Source of the DNA: Scheffersomyces stipitis CBS 6054
Lineage: Eukaryota; Ascomycota; Pichiomycetes; Serinales; Debaryomycetaceae
Direction: 5' to 3'
Length of the DNA: 64,000 bases
NCBI RefSeq assembly: GCF_000209165.1
Contig: NC_009043.1
Location: forward strand, 558,001 to 622,000
Shown here: one piece after another, positions 44,145-51,522 of the stretch
How the letters are laid out: the number at the start of each line of letters is the position of its first letter
How positions within the stretch are numbered: the first letter of the stretch is position 1
Notes under the pieces: generated by a model
What the model was told of the DNA's origin: nothing
The model's input: only the letters and a program-made list of their open reading frames with translations
The model's database searches: none
Position numbers and translations under genes: made by a program

Positions 44145-44308
44145 TGATGTGTATTGCGATTAAAGTCGAACTTATTCACTACGCAGTATATATATCATCC
44201 TCTAAACGAAATCTACTGTTGGAGAAACTCCAGAGATATGGTTCTCCGGGTGATTTTGACTAGATCCTAGGTGATCCTTGGAAAACTATAGAATTTGTCG
44301 AAAAGTGC
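44145..44308 (-). mobile_element. 5'-truncated LINE tail, copy B (older)
   Basis: Resembles the 3' untranslated region of the complete LINE at 44635-44831 in the same orientation. GTATTGCGATTAAAGTC at about 44151-44167 matches GTATTGCGACTAAAGTC; ATATCATCCTCTAA matches AAATCATCCTCTAA; CTAGGTGATCCTTGGAAAAC matches CTAGGTGATATCCTTAGAAAAC. It is truncated before ORF2, ends abruptly where copy C's T-run begins, and has substitutions throughout, so it is an older insertion. Confidence 0.75.
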
Positions 44309-44441
44309 TTTTTCATGTGTTACAACTAAAGTGGAACCTAACTACTACTGACTATCTAAATCTTTCTCTAATCCATACCGAAAGGAAGGAGATCCTACGA
44401 TAAAAAGCCCCAGATGCTATTACCTAAAATCAATGGCGATA
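44309..44441 (-). mobile_element. 5'-truncated LINE tail, copy C (older)
   Basis: Starts with T5 (44309-44313, an A5 tail on the minus strand). It then follows the LINE 3' UTR order: ACTAAAGTGGAACCTAACTACTAC, CTCTAATCCATACCGAA (identical in the intact element), and GATCCTACGATAAAAAGC against AATCCTAGGATAAAAACC, to about 44441. It abuts copy B, in the same orientation. Confidence 0.75.
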
Positions 44442-44831
44442 AGCTTGCAAAATTGCAAAAAAATGCCTTTTTTAATGTAGTAGCATACATTGAACGTACT
44501 AACCCATATAAACAGCTATAAACTAGGGATCAAGGTCATTATCACCCAATGTAGGATGGGCCAGAAATCAAATTAAAGGTATAAGAGGTATAAGAATCCT
44601 ATTTTGTCCTGCATATTACGCCTATTTTTTTTTTGACGAAATGGCATGTATTGCGACTAAAGTCTAACCTATCTACTACAAAGTATATAAATCATCCTCT
44701 AATCCATACCGAATGGTGGAGGAAATCCTAGGATAAAAACCTCCGAGTGAAATTACCTAAAAACTAGGTGATATCCTTAGAAAACTGTAGAAAACTTGAC
44801 AACGGTATATGCTACCGGACTTGTAAAATGT

Positions 44832-47800
44832 TTAAATAAGACGTCTAGACTGCAAAATCGATACCCAAGTAGAAAGTGTTGACAGAGAGAAGGATTCCCT
44901 GTCTTCACTGTTCCGCCGTCGAACTTGAAATAAGTAGACAGTAAGGAAGTATCGATTTAGAGAAAGGAAAGCAGCCACGGGAAGTTCAAACTTACCAATG
45001 ATGTTGTTTAAATCTAGGTTCATACCTTCAGGCCCTAACAAATTCCAAAACGTGCGGCTAGCCTCACAGTCTTGGTAGGTATGGTGAAAGTATTTCCGTC
45101 TTTCAATTGAGTTGAGGCACATTACACAATCTTCAAGAGCCTCCGGATTGCCCTGGCGTTCGCGGTGACCAAGGTGGACCCTGTGTAATTCCTCTGTCCC
45201 TTTGGGATGAAGAAGTTGTACTTTATAAAGAGCCTTCCAAAACTTGGGGTAATTGTCCTGTAGCAGGGGAAACTTTTGAAGTAGCGTACTGGAGCTACAC
45301 ACCGGTGCTTGTTGCTCATATTTGGCTGATCTACGAGTAAATGTCATGCGATCAACACGGCTGGTGATGTGTTTATCCCAGTCCAGCTGAAGTGGCGGAT
45401 TACGCACCATCTCTTGTTTCTCGTTAAGCGTGAAAGGCTTTTTAAAATATGAATTAATCCAAAACCTCCTACCCCTTTCATCCGGGATATGGTAGCGGTT
45501 TTTCGGCTTAATGATGGTAAACCATGCTTCGAGCCATGCTATTTCGGCTCTGGTGAATTGAGTGTAGGTCTTGTACGCTGACATTGCATGATCTTTGTTT
45601 TGGACCGCGTAGTTCACAAGGAAAAGGTACCACGGTACGATGTCCCATTTCAGGGGATCAAGTTGATTGCGTGTCGGAGGGTAAATTGTATCAATGAAGG
45701 ATTGAAGTTTGTCACGGAGAACTATGAGATTCCAATCCACCAGATTCGTCAACGTTTCGTAGATAACTTTTGCCCGTCTTCCTAAGAGCTGTTGCTTGAC
45801 ATTGAGTAGTCCGAAGCCCCCTTTCTTTTTCAAGCTACTAAGGTTTCTGTCGCTAATGCGAGGGAGATGTCCCTTTACCATCTTTTTGATGTGCTTGATA
45901 TTGTCATTTGCCATGGGATCATGTAGGTCTCGGAAGTAAATTTTCGAGAAGATGTAAGTATTGAACCCCGTGCATCTGAGATGAATTGGCAATTCTTGTA
46001 TGGTGTGGAAATGTAGCTGTGTGGAAAGAGAGGAGATATACGAATCCCATCGGAAGCCGTTAAGCGGAACTCCGAGGTATTTGTAGTCAGTGGTGCTAAT
46101 GTCAAGGACTTCAAAGCCAAGGATCTTGGTAACATCTTCGGGAGGTGACTGGCCCCAGTGGCAGGTCCGGGACTTGGCGATACTGACCAACGAGTTGGAT
46201 GCTTGTTCAAATAGAGTAAGTTCTTCTTTGAGAATTTCATGATCTCTGGTTCCCTTCACAAAAACTGTGAGATCATCTGCAAAGGCTGAATATTTCGCTG
46301 TTAGCGGTGGTAGATGGTCGAGTTGAATCGGAATTCCCTCGAGCCGACTCTGTAATCGTTGTAAAAGAGGCTCCAAGCAGAGATTGAAAAGGATAGGCAG
46401 CACTGGGTTGCCTTGTCTCGTTCCCTGTTTGAGTGGAAAGGTCTCTGACTTTGTGTTGTTGGTAAAAATGGCTGCAAATTGTTGTGTCGTTACCAGGAGC
46501 AAGATCCGCTTGAATCTGGGGCCAAAGCCAAGTTGGTCGAGTACTGCAGACAAATAGTCGTGCGATATCCGATCAAATGCTTTAGTCAAGTCCAATATAA
46601 TGACATTTGCACTTTTCAGAGTCTCGGGGTCTTTTGATACTTTGTCGATGAGGGCCCGGAACCGTTGGATTTGAAAGTCCATCTGGCGTTCGGGCATAAA
46701 GCCGCATTGGTCATAGCCGATGAGGTCCTTGGTCACCTTTTGAAGGCGCATATTAAGGACCTGCGAAATCACCCTTAAAGAAGTATTAATAAGGGAGATG
46801 GGACGGAAATCATCGACCGTGAGGTCCTTACGTTTTCTCTTGGGTATCAAACGGATGAGAACTAGAGCCATTGACTCTGGTAATATTCCCGTTTGCATGA
46901 TATTCTCCGCGTCCTTTGTTAATAGTGGGCCTGCCTTGTCCCAGATAGCCTTTAGGAAAAGATAGGTCACTCCATCTTCTCCTGGCGTGGAGCTGTTGGC
47001 AGTCCGCTGTAATCCGGACGTAAGTTCTTCATATGTGATTGGCTTTTCAAGCTCCACACTGTCGCTGGCTGATACTTTGCGACGGAACAGCTGTACATAC
47101 CTCCTAATGGAGAGTTTGGCTTCTTGGGCCTGGGAATCCAGGTAAAGCGCTGCAAGGTGTTCTCGTTGTATCTCTAGTATATCTTTGGTTGTGATGGCGG
47201 TGCGAGCCCGATCTGCGGTTGTGAGTGTACTCACAATTGTTGCTGCATGGGTTGCCCCTTTGAACCGGTCGTTGAGATCCTTGAAGATCTTTGGTGGTTG
47301 CCTCTCTTCTATTTGGGAAGTGACCGACTGTTGATTTCTAAGATAGCCTATTATTCTAGGCAATCGTTTTATGAATGCAGTGTAGTCGGAAAATCTTGTT
47401 TGTTGTAAGATACTGAAGAGATGTGTGTTGTCTAGCCAGTGGTCCTTTACGATGAAGCGGGGTTTTCTGATTTTTAAGGTCGCTTTTGGAAGGATAATAA
47501 GGTCTATTTCAACTGTTATATGAGTTGATGAGATTATGCCTTCTTTGTGTTGATGGTATCGCCAAACCCTGTCTTTAAGAGACGTGGGGAGATAGATACG
47601 ATCGAGGCGGCGACAATTTCGGAAATTGTCATTCGTGAATAATTTGATTTGAGGATCGAGCCCTCTGAGAGTGTCGTGGAGTTGTAAGCCATGGAAGATA
47701 GCATTGAATGCATCGCGTGATGCGACTTCCGTGTTTTGTCCGACGTGAAAGGAGTCAATTTCAGGGTCAAGGACCATGTTGAAATCGCCCCCTAGGCAGA

Positions 47801-48386
47801 CGTGGAATGTAGCTCCTGCGTTGTTTAGTTTGAAGCTTTGGGTGATGATGTCAATTTGGGAGTGTAATGAGGTAAACAACTTGGCCTGAGCCGGATAGTT
47901 CCCGCTTGGGCCGTACACGGATATTATGAGGATGTATTCCTCTTTCTCCGTTAGTTTGATGATGGCGTCAGTTGCATAGGGAGCAAGGTCGGCGTCTAGA
48001 TCAAGGTTGTTACTTGATATTTGCTGGAAGTGGGAGTACTGGAGATTTAAGATTATCCCAGTGCGTGATGAAGTGTTGGTGTAGATTAACTCCTTTTGGG
48101 AGTCTTTCAATGTATTCAGGAGCCCATGAATCCATTCCGGTGTCAAATTTGGCAGCGAAGTAGAAGAGGTTTCCTGGAACAGGTTGTTGTAGTTTAGGTT
48201 TTGAGAGTGGAAAACAGTTTCCTGGATGAGGAGAATGTCGCATTTATGTGCTAGTTCTCGAATTTTCGCAGGATCCTGGTTTCGTTGAATGTTCTTGGAT
48301 CTAATCGTTATTAAGTTGTTGCGATGATTCACTTCCGATGCCTTTAAGGTCGGATTGGTTATCGCCGTATCTAGTAGATTACTCAT
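44832..48386 (-). CDS. LINE ORF2: endonuclease-reverse transcriptase
   Basis: A 1184-residue polyprotein for target-primed reverse transcription. The AP-type endonuclease spans about 25-290: SKNIQ (Asn), CDILLIQETVF (Glu), CLGGDFNMV (Asp/Asn), RLDRIYLP, and SSTHITV where the usual SDH Asp is Thr. RT spans about 500-780: DDFRPISLINTS, VIILDLTKAFDRISH (motif A, about 600), GTRQGNPV-[CTG]-PILFNL (motif B), and AFADDLTVF (motif C, catalytic DD, about 702). A C-terminal zinc motif CVMCLNS...HHTYQDC (about 1088-1108) resembles zf-RVT of L1-like elements. Read as Ser, the motif-B CTG gives the consensus QGxPxSPxLF. The start ATG lies one base past the ORF1 stop. Confidence 0.93.
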   Translation of the reverse strand: MSNLLDTAITNPTLKASEVNHRNNLITIRSKNIQRNQDPAKIRELAHKCDILLIQETVFHSQNLNYNNLFQETSSTSLPNLTPEWIHGLLNTLKDSQKELIYTNTSSRTGIILNLQYSHFQQISSNNLDLDADLAPYATDAIIKLTEKEEYILIISVYGPSGNYPAQAKLFTSLHSQIDIITQSFKLNNAGATFHVCLGGDFNMVLDPEIDSFHVGQNTEVASRDAFNAIFHGLQLHDTLRGLDPQIKLFTNDNFRNCRRLDRIYLPTSLKDRVWRYHQHKEGIISSTHITVEIDLIILPKATLKIRKPRFIVKDHWLDNTHLFSILQQTRFSDYTAFIKRLPRIIGYLRNQQSVTSQIEERQPPKIFKDLNDRFKGATHAATIVSTLTTADRARTAITTKDILEIQREHLAALYLDSQAQEAKLSIRRYVQLFRRKVSASDSVELEKPITYEELTSGLQRTANSSTPGEDGVTYLFLKAIWDKAGPLLTKDAENIMQTGILPESMALVLIRLIPKRKRKDLTVDDFRPISLINTSLRVISQVLNMRLQKVTKDLIGYDQCGFMPERQMDFQIQRFRALIDKVSKDPETLKSANVIILDLTKAFDRISHDYLSAVLDQLGFGPRFKRILLLVTTQQFAAIFTNNTKSETFPLKQGTRQGNPVLPILFNLCLEPLLQRLQSRLEGIPIQLDHLPPLTAKYSAFADDLTVFVKGTRDHEILKEELTLFEQASNSLVSIAKSRTCHWGQSPPEDVTKILGFEVLDISTTDYKYLGVPLNGFRWDSYISSLSTQLHFHTIQELPIHLRCTGFNTYIFSKIYFRDLHDPMANDNIKHIKKMVKGHLPRISDRNLSSLKKKGGFGLLNVKQQLLGRRAKVIYETLTNLVDWNLIVLRDKLQSFIDTIYPPTRNQLDPLKWDIVPWYLFLVNYAVQNKDHAMSAYKTYTQFTRAEIAWLEAWFTIIKPKNRYHIPDERGRRFWINSYFKKPFTLNEKQEMVRNPPLQLDWDKHITSRVDRMTFTRRSAKYEQQAPVCSSSTLLQKFPLLQDNYPKFWKALYKVQLLHPKGTEELHRVHLGHRERQGNPEALEDCVMCLNSIERRKYFHHTYQDCEASRTFWNLLGPEGMNLDLNNIIGKFELPVAAFLSLNRYFLTVYLFQVRRRNSEDRESFSLSTLSTWVSILQSRRLI

Positions 48387-48387
48387 A

Positions 48388-51366
48388 TTAATAATCTATT
48401 GTGTTGGAGGGGTTGGCTTCGTGTGAGCCAATCGTGACAGTTACCGGTTGATGAGCCAAATTAGTATGGTCAACAATGTCCTGGTGTATACTTGGAGAGT
48501 CGACTTGTGTTGGGTCGACGCTTTGACTTTGAAATCTTAGTGAAGGGTCAGATCTTTCCATGTTGTCCAAAATTGTGGATTCCGGTTCCCCTAGAGTGGA
48601 TCCTAGTGGGGAATCCGTGATATCCATGACTCTGGCAGGAGGATCTGTTATTGGCGGAGGATCTCGTAGTGTTGGGATGCGGCTGGCTGAGGTGTTTTGT
48701 GCCTGCAGTTCGTCGCGGCTTAAACTAAGAGTCTTATTAAGTGCTTCATGCACCCTTTGGGACTGTCTTAGAGTCTGACTTTTGTTGGAGTGGGAGAGTC
48801 CTATAATAGGAGAGTAAGGGGTCGGTTGCTTCCTTGTGAGAGGGGCTAGGCGACCCGAGTAGGATGGTGAAGAGATTGGGGTTGCTAGGGGTTTGGTTTT
48901 TGATGTGACAAGGGATTTACCTTGCTTTCTTGGGCGAGGCGTGATTGGTTGAAGGAGCGGTTGTGTTCTGGTCGGTTTGTTGCCAGCGGCATTGATTGTA
49001 GTTTCTGGGAGGAGCTCCATTTCTTGGTCCTGAACCTGGTGGCTAAGGATGACGGATGCTTCATCGTCACGGATATCTTCATCTTCGTCTGAATCGGTGT
49101 ATCTTACTGTTTCGTCATCATCATCTTGGATGTATTCCCTTTGGATTTGATCTTGTGGTCTCTCGTTGTTTGAGGTATTGCGAGGTACCCCTGTAGATTT
49201 AGGGTGCATGATAGCTCTCATGGTTTGGTGGGAGTCAGGTTGTGCTGACTGGTTATGGCTCACGTGTTCTGTTACTCCCGATTCTGGGAGGTCGGCGAGT
49301 GGCGCGAATCGATTACCTCCTTGTCTATGTTGGGAGATTAAGGGTTGTGGTTCCTTTCGGCGTGGAGCGCCTTTGGTCACCGGGTTAAACCCATCGTCGT
49401 CCTTTTGATGTTGTTTGTATGGACGTGCGTTGTTAGGGGATTCGTTCTGATAAAAATAGGGTACCTTTGCAACCGGGGCCTTGAATGTTGGGCATCGTTT
49501 GGTTGAGTGCTGATTGGTGTGACATTTGAAACAGAATTGGTATGAGGAGATAATGTCTAGTTGTACACCCTGCATGAAGGCGTTCTTTCTGTTTGGAATC
49601 CTATCCGATTCCGTCGCAATCAAATAGAAAGCAGACTGGAATCTTGACAGAGTCGATCTGCCTTTGTGGAGTGGTACTTCCCTTCGGTGTTTAGCTAGAA
49701 TATCGTATACGATAGGCTCTCGTTCTTCCCTGCGTAAAGACCTGTATTGAGGTACTTGATACGTGTCAAGCGTATTTGGGTTGAACATTGCTTCTAATAG
49801 ATTGTCTAAGTTTTTGTTTCCAATTGGGGCTTTTATACCCACAAGAAAGACGTTGGGATAACTAGAAAGAGGAATAAGTTTAAGTGTAAATCTGTAGTTG
49901 CCTTCTTCCCCTGTGTAGTAAGGGTCGAATATTTCTTCAAATTTAGTCTTCAGCCATTTCTTTGGACCTTGAGATTTGAAGCGTGGAACTACAGTATTAC
50001 TTTCAGTAATGGAGAAGTTAAAGTTTAAGTGCAGATTGTCCCGGATATGTATGTGGAAATACTCCTTTATGTCATAAATCCTTTGAGTGATTTGAAGTGT
50101 TTTCTCCAACTCTTCAATTTCAAGTTGGGTATTGTTGATGCCCCGCTTCAACTCCTGCTCCAGAGGGTCCCCTGGGGATATCTGGTTTTGGTAAAATTGA
50201 AGTGATTTTTTGAGACTGGCAATACTCTGCTCGGTGTGTTCTTCTAACTCATCTAACCTATCAGGTATAGTCTCCTTAAAGTGGGTAAGAATTATCCTAG
50301 CTTTGTCCTCGATGCTCATTTGGGGTTTTAACAGGTTCAGTCTGTATTCAAATGAGTCAATGTGGACTCTTACATCTAACTTTTCAGCAACGTTTCTGCC
50401 GATTGTGCTGAGGGTTGACACTCTTACCTCCTCAGGCGTATCCCAGTCGTCGAACCTTTTCTGTTGGCCCTTATAGTTTGCTTCCGATAACCCTTCTAAG
50501 TGACTGATAAGTGTCGAGTATGTGTCAAACTGGTCAAAGACTTCATTGGTGGTAGGAACGTCCATCTTCATCTGTTCTTGGAGGGCCTCCATTTTCAGTC
50601 TGTATGTTTGAAGTATTTTGTCGGATTCTTTATCGGGAACATCTTGAAGAATATCTGCCCATTTTGCCTTATTAGGGTTTGGAAGAGGAGTAGATCTAAT
50701 TGCCTTGGGGTTTGAGGGATGAATCCTTTTCTTAGAAGAACTCTTTGAGGTTCCTAAGAGTGGGTATTCCTCTGCTTCAAGGTCTTGTGTATTTTTTTCT
50801 GGGAGTTTTGTATTTTCGGAGTTTTTTTGGTTTTTATTTAAGTATTGTAAGGATTCAGAATTTTTTTGGGTTTTTGTATTTTCTTTAAGTTGGTGTACAA
50901 GGAGAGAATCTTCTTGTTCGGGCAAGTTCGAGAGGCTGGTTGTAGAATTTAAAGAAATGTGATCCATTTCATTATCATCGTTTGCAGCCATTTCCTGGTC
51001 GTGTACCTCGTCAAGCACGTGACTTTGAAAAATTTCCGAAACTGAGGTTTCAAAACTTTCCATAGTAGGACTTAATGGGGTCTGGTTCTGAATAACCAGC
51101 TCGTCCATGGGATTATCCCGTAGTTGGGCCGGTTCCTCAGAGGTAGATGACACTGCAGTCACGAAGGATGGCTCTAAATTGCCGTTTTCATCGGCATCTG
51201 TGGACTCGCCATCGAGGTCCATCAGATCAGGGGGTGCGACATGGTCGTGTGGATTTCGGTCAATATCCGGTGGTTTTGGCTCGTTTAAGGCTTGATTTGA
51301 AGAGCTTTCACCAGAGAAAACCCCTAGAGGTCCCTCTGGCTGATTGATTGGTCGTAGTTCTGACAT
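48388..51366 (-). CDS. LINE ORF1: Gag-like RNA-binding protein
   Basis: A 992-residue ORF1 protein, presumed RNA chaperone and ribonucleoprotein subunit. An acidic, low-complexity N-terminus (about 1-220) precedes helical and coiled-coil stretches (QELKRGINNTQLEIEELEK, about 405-423). A folded, RRM-like or nucleic-acid-binding region follows (about 450-600). One CCHC zinc knuckle lies at about 610-625 (CFKCHTNQHSTKRC, spacing C-x2-C-x4-H-x4-C). The C-terminal third is Q/P/S-rich and disordered. It is far longer than mammalian L1 ORF1 (about 340 residues). It ends IDY with TAA. The start ATG 51366 is near the element's 5' end. Confidence 0.85.
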   Translation of the reverse strand: MSELRPINQPEGPLGVFSGESSSNQALNEPKPPDIDRNPHDHVAPPDLMDLDGESTDADENGNLEPSFVTAVSSTSEEPAQLRDNPMDELVIQNQTPLSPTMESFETSVSEIFQSHVLDEVHDQEMAANDDNEMDHISLNSTTSLSNLPEQEDSLLVHQLKENTKTQKNSESLQYLNKNQKNSENTKLPEKNTQDLEAEEYPLLGTSKSSSKKRIHPSNPKAIRSTPLPNPNKAKWADILQDVPDKESDKILQTYRLKMEALQEQMKMDVPTTNEVFDQFDTYSTLISHLEGLSEANYKGQQKRFDDWDTPEEVRVSTLSTIGRNVAEKLDVRVHIDSFEYRLNLLKPQMSIEDKARIILTHFKETIPDRLDELEEHTEQSIASLKKSLQFYQNQISPGDPLEQELKRGINNTQLEIEELEKTLQITQRIYDIKEYFHIHIRDNLHLNFNFSITESNTVVPRFKSQGPKKWLKTKFEEIFDPYYTGEEGNYRFTLKLIPLSSYPNVFLVGIKAPIGNKNLDNLLEAMFNPNTLDTYQVPQYRSLRREEREPIVYDILAKHRREVPLHKGRSTLSRFQSAFYLIATESDRIPNRKNAFMQGVQLDIISSYQFCFKCHTNQHSTKRCPTFKAPVAKVPYFYQNESPNNARPYKQHQKDDDGFNPVTKGAPRRKEPQPLISQHRQGGNRFAPLADLPESGVTEHVSHNQSAQPDSHQTMRAIMHPKSTGVPRNTSNNERPQDQIQREYIQDDDDETVRYTDSDEDEDIRDDEASVILSHQVQDQEMELLPETTINAAGNKPTRTQPLLQPITPRPRKQGKSLVTSKTKPLATPISSPSYSGRLAPLTRKQPTPYSPIIGLSHSNKSQTLRQSQRVHEALNKTLSLSRDELQAQNTSASRIPTLRDPPPITDPPARVMDITDSPLGSTLGEPESTILDNMERSDPSLRFQSQSVDPTQVDSPSIHQDIVDHTNLAHQPVTVTIGSHEANPSNTIDY

Positions 51367-51447
51367 TTTTTACAATCACTAAATCTGCCTCATCACGTGA
51401 TTTTAAATGATCGAAATGCGATTGTTTCAATACTACTCCCAAATAAT
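51367..51447. other. LINE 5' boundary / tRNA upstream flank
   Basis: Only 81 bp separate the LINE ORF1 ATG from the tRNA. It holds the LINE 5' UTR, the unknown 5' junction and the tRNA's upstream flank. TCACGTGA (51393-51400) is a perfect E-box, 27 bp before the ORF1 ATG in LINE orientation, possibly part of the element's promoter. Confidence 0.5.
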
Positions 51448-51519
51448 GCCCGCTTGGCCAAGTGGTAAGGCGCTCCACTCGTAATGGAGCGATCGCCGGT
51501 TCGATTCCGGCAGTGGGCA
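51448..51519 (+). tRNA. tRNA-Thr (anticodon CGU)
   Basis: Full cloverleaf: acceptor GCCCGCT pairs with AGTGGGC (one G-T), D-arm GCC/GGC around AAGTGGTAA, anticodon stem CTCCA/TGGAG enclosing CTCGTAA (anticodon CGT, reads ACG), T-arm GCCGG/CCGGC around TTCGATT, discriminator A. A box TGGCCAAGTGG is at 51455-51465 and B box GGTTCGATTCC at 51498-51508. No intron. Similar to yeast tRNA-Thr(CGU). Confidence 0.97.
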
Positions 51520-51522
51520 TTA

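Follow-up and report, generated by a model that had tools for sequence, protein, structure and literature searches.

LINEs of four families lie in a fixed orientation upstream of tRNA, 5S rRNA and snR52-like genes in the yeast Scheffersomyces stipitis

In the yeast Scheffersomyces stipitis CBS 6054, four families of long interspersed nuclear elements (LINEs), A to D, very probably insert by target-primed reverse transcription under guidance of the initiation complex of RNA polymerase III (Pol III), about 60 to 130 base pairs (bp) upstream of the genes that this polymerase transcribes and with the 5′ end toward the gene. The analysis started from a stretch of 64,000 nucleotides (nt) (RefSeq assembly GCF_000209165.1, contig NC_009043.1, positions 558,001 to 622,000 of the forward strand; the window), in which a full-length family A LINE lies on the minus strand behind a tRNA-Thr(CGU) gene and is backed by further, truncated LINE tails. 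A sequence-only reading of this locus had proposed that new copies land just upstream of the tRNA gene and push older ones outward; its observation and its inference were both right, and the phenomenon is broader than it had stated. At the level of the assembled sequence, the arrangement of the copies demonstrates the address, the side, the orientation, the distance, the breadth of targets (tRNA, 5S rRNA and snR52-like genes), the use of these targets by four families and a stacking of copies in which age increases outward.

The genome (15,441,179 bp in eight contigs; one genome) was searched three times, with a 301-bp probe holding the 3′ untranslated region (UTR) of the LINE (47 hits), with open reading frame (ORF) 2 (36 hits) and with the 5′ end (28 hits). 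At least 111 LINE matches were obtained in 47 clusters (matches less than 8 kilobases [kb] apart were joined), and tRNAs, with or without introns, were sought in the gene-side flank of each of the 47 clusters; 13 fetched loci were also compared with Rfam. A Pol III gene was found on the LINE 5′ side, in divergent orientation, in 43 of the 47 clusters, namely, a tRNA gene in 41, a 5S rRNA gene in one and an snR52-like gene in one. The enrichment near tRNA genes thus holds for 41 of 47 clusters with side, orientation and distance fixed, and the proposed insertion upstream of tRNA genes stands for these clusters; it was drawn too narrowly, as the target comprises other Pol III genes and the habit is shared by four families. 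More than 20 anticodons are represented among the LINE-adjacent tRNA genes (ARAGORN) and the spacers are unrelated, so that the loci are not duplicated blocks. No LINE sequence was found 3′ of any listed Pol III gene within the fetched stretch, which includes little 3′ flank at short loci. A randomly placed and randomly oriented copy would fall into a 70-bp upstream slot with a P of about 0.002, corresponding to about 0.1 expected of 47; this estimate, calculated by hand, counts all 857 first-look tRNA candidates as genes and uses a slot width chosen post hoc.

The distance from the innermost LINE base to the gene was 62 to 128 bp (median, 92 bp; n = 40), as defined by BLAST matches at an E value of 1e-3; shorter, uncounted LINE scraps are present in some spacers (loci L043 and L055), so that a few true distances are smaller. 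Outside these 40 cases are a tRNA-Lys gene (contig C1, C1:1344k), where the LINE is 96 bp away, six flanks (L060, L062, L063, L064, L067 and L070) with LINE-tRNA distances of 87 to 192 bp determined by hand, an LTR-interrupted tRNA-Val gene and the snR52-like gene. At tRNA-Val (C7:549k), an intervening long terminal repeat (LTR) of 285 bp accounts for a distance of 360 bp to the LINE tail. The 5S rRNA target (L014; partial large-subunit rRNA match nearby) is 74 bp from its LINE. At the snR52-like gene, 223 bp separate the end of the LINE (C7:1012514) from the mature RNA (C7:1012737), which is the distance to the mature RNA and not to the transcript start. In Saccharomyces cerevisiae, snR52 is a small nucleolar RNA transcribed by Pol III; the Rfam alignment is clear (L050:172-361, C7:1012.6-1012.8k; score, 39.2), and a leader holding a B-box-like GGTTCGTTTCC, with three CACGTG hexamers upstream in the spacer, suggests that the S. 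stipitis gene is transcribed by Pol III likewise.

Random insertion followed by selection that purged copies away from tRNA genes would also leave LINEs near such genes, and it has been argued for tRNA-targeting elements that gene-dense genomes favor safe sites (PMC5006619). Confinement to one side, one orientation and a distance of 62 to 128 bp is, however, not expected from selection, and seven A copies that are 99.6 to 99.9% identical to the window's copy follow the placement rule as old copies do; we consider this explanation extremely unlikely.

A survey that started from the tRNA genes gave a concordant picture. Among the first 32 of 63 tRNAs, ranked by score with LINEs disregarded, 17 had LINE sequence within 380 bp upstream (at 73 to 192 bp), in all cases antisense. 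Weak matches in L059, L069 and L071 (E values of 3e-4 to 4e-3) were scored as misses, the flank of the upstream tRNA was used for the tandem tRNAs at C1:1068462 and C6:964872, and the flanks of L068 and L079 hold a further tRNA. Six of the 17 stretches L059 to L075, whose tRNAs had been picked for having no match to the 3′ UTR probe or ORF2, carried clear LINE tails, and the match list of the 301-bp probe is therefore a lower bound. In the control set of 46 non-LINE ORFs (at least 150 amino acids, with a complete upstream flank, from the window and the partly overlapping loci L009 to L036), LINE sequence was present within 380 bp upstream of 2, both at LINE-bearing tRNA loci.

One family A copy, at L018, broke off at element position 334 with no tRNA nearby. 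The DNA past the break starts with 285 bp that are 99% identical to the LTR at C7:549k and encodes a copia-type reverse transcriptase (RT) (RVT_2; E value, 3e-82), which indicated that an LTR element had split the LINE and that the 5′ remainder was to be expected at the tRNA at C1:1673517. The 5′-end search located this remainder at C1:1673099-1673438, 79 bp from tRNA-Thr(UGU) at C1:1673517. By position, the copia-type element within this LINE (L018:7972-10000 to C1:1673099) measures about 6.1 kb; the 99% identical LTR of 285 bp stands between LINE tail and tRNA-Val at C7:549k.

In the window, the first LINE base (51367) is one base before the ATG of ORF1 and 80 bp from tRNA-Thr(CGU), in line with the earlier description of a minus-strand LINE whose 5′ end is within 81 bp of this gene. 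That description had also noted two tails in the same orientation (44309-44441 and 44145-44308), which correspond to the outer two of three; the innermost, a family C tail at 44468-44563, had been overlooked (Table 1). Identity of the three tails to their nearest reference copies falls outward (92, 79 and 75%). The tails differ in family and in truncation point; the possibility that they are tandem repeats of the LINE's own 3′ UTR, which the sequence-only reading had itself named, was rejected for this reason.

The order of insertion was assessed in 13 stacks in which the outermost copy had less than 95% identity, and in 12 of these the innermost copy was less diverged than the outermost, L034 being the sole exception. 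Stacks with an outermost copy of at least 95% identity were skipped; one of these, L048, showed the reverse order (inner copy, 98.6%; outer copy, 100% over 38 bp). Identity is only a rough clock here, since one reference copy per family was used and the window copy was itself the A reference. At L016/L017, the inner A copy has the first ~10 nt of a D copy on its tRNA side and the rest of D beyond it, which shows that D arrived first and A inserted at its tRNA-facing end; L055 (family D at tRNA-Trp), where no more than a few bases of an A-type tail are present, seems to be arranged likewise. The earlier claim that older copies are displaced outward was in this way supported. Family C is repeated in the stacks at L035 and L024/L025. 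Tandem duplication via unequal exchange, in place of serial insertion, might account for near-identical same-family copies in some stacks (C4:274-286k, family C). However, many stacks are of mixed families (B and A at L011/L012; C, C and B at L020/L023) with separate truncation points, the junctions examined carry their own A tails, and divergence mostly rises outward, so that we regard such an origin of the stacks as most improbable.

That the cue is the Pol III initiation complex is suggested by the fixed side, orientation and distance, together with the 5S rRNA and snR52-like targets. TFIIIB and TFIIIC assembled on the gene would bring in the ribonucleoprotein of the element, the ORF2 endonuclease would nick the DNA right behind this complex and the LINE RNA would be copied in. 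As the nick site would fall between the gene and an earlier copy, a newcomer would land inside and displace the older copy outward. Truncation before the 5′ end is reached is common among the copies, and many outer members of stacks are accordingly short 3′ ends. Short target-site duplications were found only at some junctions (L010, 7 nt; L026, 12 nt).

Upstream motifs provide a different candidate for the cue. CACGTG is centered 49 to 73 bp upstream of many tRNA genes (in one case, 85 bp) and is sometimes doubled, and a second motif, GCGGYRYGGRT, which we take to resemble Rap1-type telomere-repeat sequence, occurs 58 to 65 bp from tRNA genes; both are present at LINE-bearing and at LINE-free tRNA genes. 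What the LINEs recognize might be a DNA-bound upstream factor, or the nucleosome-free edge that it makes, and not the Pol III machinery: CACGTG was present in 25 of 41 LINE-gene spacers, in 7 of 14 LINE-free tRNA upstream stretches and in none of 41 spacers in one shuffle, the distance from the gene is fixed, the LINE usually ends just past the motif, and the snR52 spacer holds the hexamer three times. Against this, 10 of 41 spacers (5S rRNA included) contain neither motif and have an unchanged LINE distance, and the window holds 12 CACGTG sites, of which 9 lie more than 700 bp from any LINE match and three are the spacer site plus two sites inside the LINE. Guidance by such a factor appears unlikely to us; CACGTG as the sole cue was rejected because of the 10 spacers devoid of both motifs.

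Several copies adjoin an A run or a neighbor's poly-A tail, and Zorro3, a LINE of Candida albicans, goes into poly-A (PMC1965478). Targeting of A runs alone, provided upstream of tRNA genes and by earlier poly-A tails that seed later insertions, could thus be considered, and the 200-bp stretches upstream of LINE-free tRNA genes indeed contained AAAAAA in 9 of 14 cases. In the spacers, however, AAAAAA was found in 15 of 41, compared to 9 of 41 when shuffled, and at several junctions (L013, L014 and L019) the 5′ end lacks an A run. Since A runs are common, they alone would not confine copies to Pol III genes, and we rate this explanation as very unlikely.

Several results weigh against guided insertion upstream of Pol III genes. 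At four clusters of LINE remnants, L029 (C7:561.8k), L038 (C6:1319k), L052 (C3:1569.7k) and L077 (C7:467k), no Pol III gene was found in the DNA examined, of which the gene side amounted to only about 350 to 425 bp at L038, L052 and L077. None of the 111 LINE matches was within 15 kb of the genes for U6, the signal recognition particle (SRP) RNA or ribonuclease P (RNase P), the match lists being lower bounds; these genes were dropped as further targets, and not every Pol III gene is targeted. Fifteen of the 32 sampled tRNA genes had no clear LINE at an E value of 1e-3. The snR52-like match is below the Rfam gathering score (39.2 versus 45). Two small fragments are reversed (L022:8584-8887 and an ORF2 scrap at C1:3180308). 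Target-site duplications are weak overall, with at least 5 nt shared in 7 of 16 junction pairs compared to 48 of 240 mismatched pairs. Separately, CACGTG was observed near the LINE at L077, so that a Pol III gene might have been lost there or have an unusual form.

The 5′ ends bear on how these LINEs might be expressed. In A and B copies with an intact 5′ end, 1 nt precedes the ATG of ORF1, and C copies start no more than about 7 nt from it. Family D starts 2 nt ahead of an ATG whose reading frame runs on into ORF1 at L054 and L056, and has lost this ATG at L055 and L017. Among the first 49 aligned codons of A and C, differences by codon position number 11, 13 and 24, as expected if translation begins at the first ATG. 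All four families thus seem to be without a 5′ UTR and an internal promoter, which suggests that the promoter may be supplied by the flank of the LINE. An excerpt on S. stipitis LINEs describes noncoding regions that flank the coding part on both sides (PMC8546629), which differs from the 5′ ends observed here. A tentative and somewhat doubtful extension is that these LINEs, having no promoter of their own, prefer to settle behind the upstream element that is bound at Pol III genes, since such a site supplies a divergent promoter; targeting would then serve safety as well as expression, and only the innermost copy of a stack would be live, older ones being silenced by displacement. With hardly any 5′ UTR present, the question of the promoter is open to direct test.

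The window element is a LINE of the AP endonuclease (APE) type, with an RT and an AP-type endonuclease (a weak match) in ORF2, a 3′ poly-A and frequent 5′ truncation among its copies; it is of the poly-A type, and no LTR was seen at its ends. Proteins were translated with CUG read as serine, a code that was assumed. A Pfam scan of ORF1 was without a match. The homologue search with ORF2 returned two close, unnamed relatives and otherwise distant ones, many of which have both RT and endonuclease domains; no protein named Zorro was among the matches, and the only Dictyostelium-named protein, which bears no element name, was 24% identical over 35% of ORF2. Besides diverged tails, the genome holds family A (the window's), B, C and D, with ORF2 identities to A of 62% (B), 52% (C) and 28% (D). 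The N terminus of ORF1 is conserved in A, B and C and is not recognizable in D; as D targets alike, this segment was rejected as the targeting part and is kept as a lead. The first 401 bp of A and B are 91% identical (L021:8269 versus window position 51367), with ORF1 proteins that are only 37% identical overall, a pattern that an exchange of the 5′ end between these families would produce. Several copies have lost the middle and kept both ends (L013:6341, L012:2334, L015:1720, L024:2705 and L030:2558), with an overlap of 1 to 4 nt at the join in L012, L015 and L024; these copies may stem from template jumps or be non-autonomous derivatives.

Table 1. Features of the LINE stack behind tRNA-Thr(CGU) in the window
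Feature	Position in window	Strand	Basis or remark
tRNA-Thr(CGU), target gene	51447-51520	+	ARAGORN; RF00005 match G000:C3:609448-609519
Spacer between tRNA and LINE, 79 bp	51368-51446		CACGTG at 51394
LINE family A, full-length	44635-51367	-	Two ORFs
ORF1, 992 amino acids	48388-51366	-	One zinc knuckle CX2CX4HX4C, residue 612
ORF2, 1184 amino acids	44832-48386	-	Pfam RVT_1, E 3e-33; Exo_endo_phos, E 1e-3 (under its curated cut-off)
3′ UTR of LINE, ~200 bp	44635-44831	-	Included in 301-bp genome-wide probe
A10 tail of LINE	44625-44634	-	Sequence
Tail 1 (innermost), 5′-truncated	44468-44563	-	92% to family C
Tail 2, 5′-truncated, diverged	44314-44462	-	Nearest family B, 79%
Tail 3 (outermost), 5′-truncated, most diverged	44150-44293	-	Nearest family A, 75%

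Three LINE families of S. stipitis have been described as Ace, Bri and Can (PMC8546629), and the LINEs found here are probably these, as judged by host and description and not by a sequence match to the names; the excerpts of that paper mention no tRNA or Pol III targeting for them, and their one mention of tRNA concerns LTR primer sites. Zorro3 of C. albicans is likewise a yeast LINE with a very short 5′ UTR and poly-A at the insertion site (PMC7175516, PMC1965478); at the S. stipitis junctions, A runs were found in some cases and not in others. It differs in that 30 new Zorro3 insertions had no association with tRNA genes (PMC1965478), whereas 43 of 47 clusters were associated with Pol III genes in S. 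stipitis. Assays of Zorro3 retrotransposition are available for both C. albicans and S. cerevisiae (PMC7175516) and provide a related bench system. Ty1, Ty3, Tca8/beta and Tyl3 also insert upstream of Pol III genes (PMC5911963) but are LTR elements with an integrase. In Yarrowia, LTR elements adjoin Pol III genes, and the same is not reported for the Yarrowia LINE in the excerpts of PMC5014426. The table of a 2018 review, as excerpted, gives LINEs with Pol III targeting for social amoebae only (PMC5911963), and no report of such targeting by a fungal LINE was found in the open-licence literature; most subscription papers and preprints were beyond this scope, and novelty is unproven. From ordered stacks of the kind seen here, the history of insertions at each tRNA gene can be read off.

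The closest counterparts in habit are the LINEs of social amoebae. TRE5 elements of Dictyostelium discoideum also lie upstream of tRNA genes, and in addition at 5S rRNA genes and further Pol III sites, with the 5′ end toward the gene, as follows from junctions amplified with primers for the tRNA gene and ORF1; a new copy came to stand in tandem with a resident one, and 334 (83%) of the tRNA gene positions are potential sites (PMC5391098, PMC5911963). For TRE5-A, functional evidence is available: targeting is lost when the B box is mutated (PMC5391098), and TFIIIB subunits are contacted by the ORF1 protein (PMC5911963). Other dictyostelids have the LINEs NLTR-A and NLTR-B, at 2 to 6 bp and 39 to 64 bp upstream of tRNA genes (PMC5911963), and these differ from the yeast LINEs in distance and host. 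By analogy, the yeast LINEs would work like TRE5-A, to which they are likened by habit and not by descent, and they miss two of its features: TRE5-A inserts at 47 ± 3 bp (80% of distinguishable events) (PMC5391098, PMC5911963), in contrast to 62 to 128 bp (median, 92 bp) in the yeast, and it carries A and B modules in its 5′ UTR (PMC5911963), whereas the yeast LINEs start 0 to 7 nt before the ATG of ORF1. Pol III targeting in four yeast LINE families suggests convergent evolution, in a second kingdom, of the habit known from TRE5-A.

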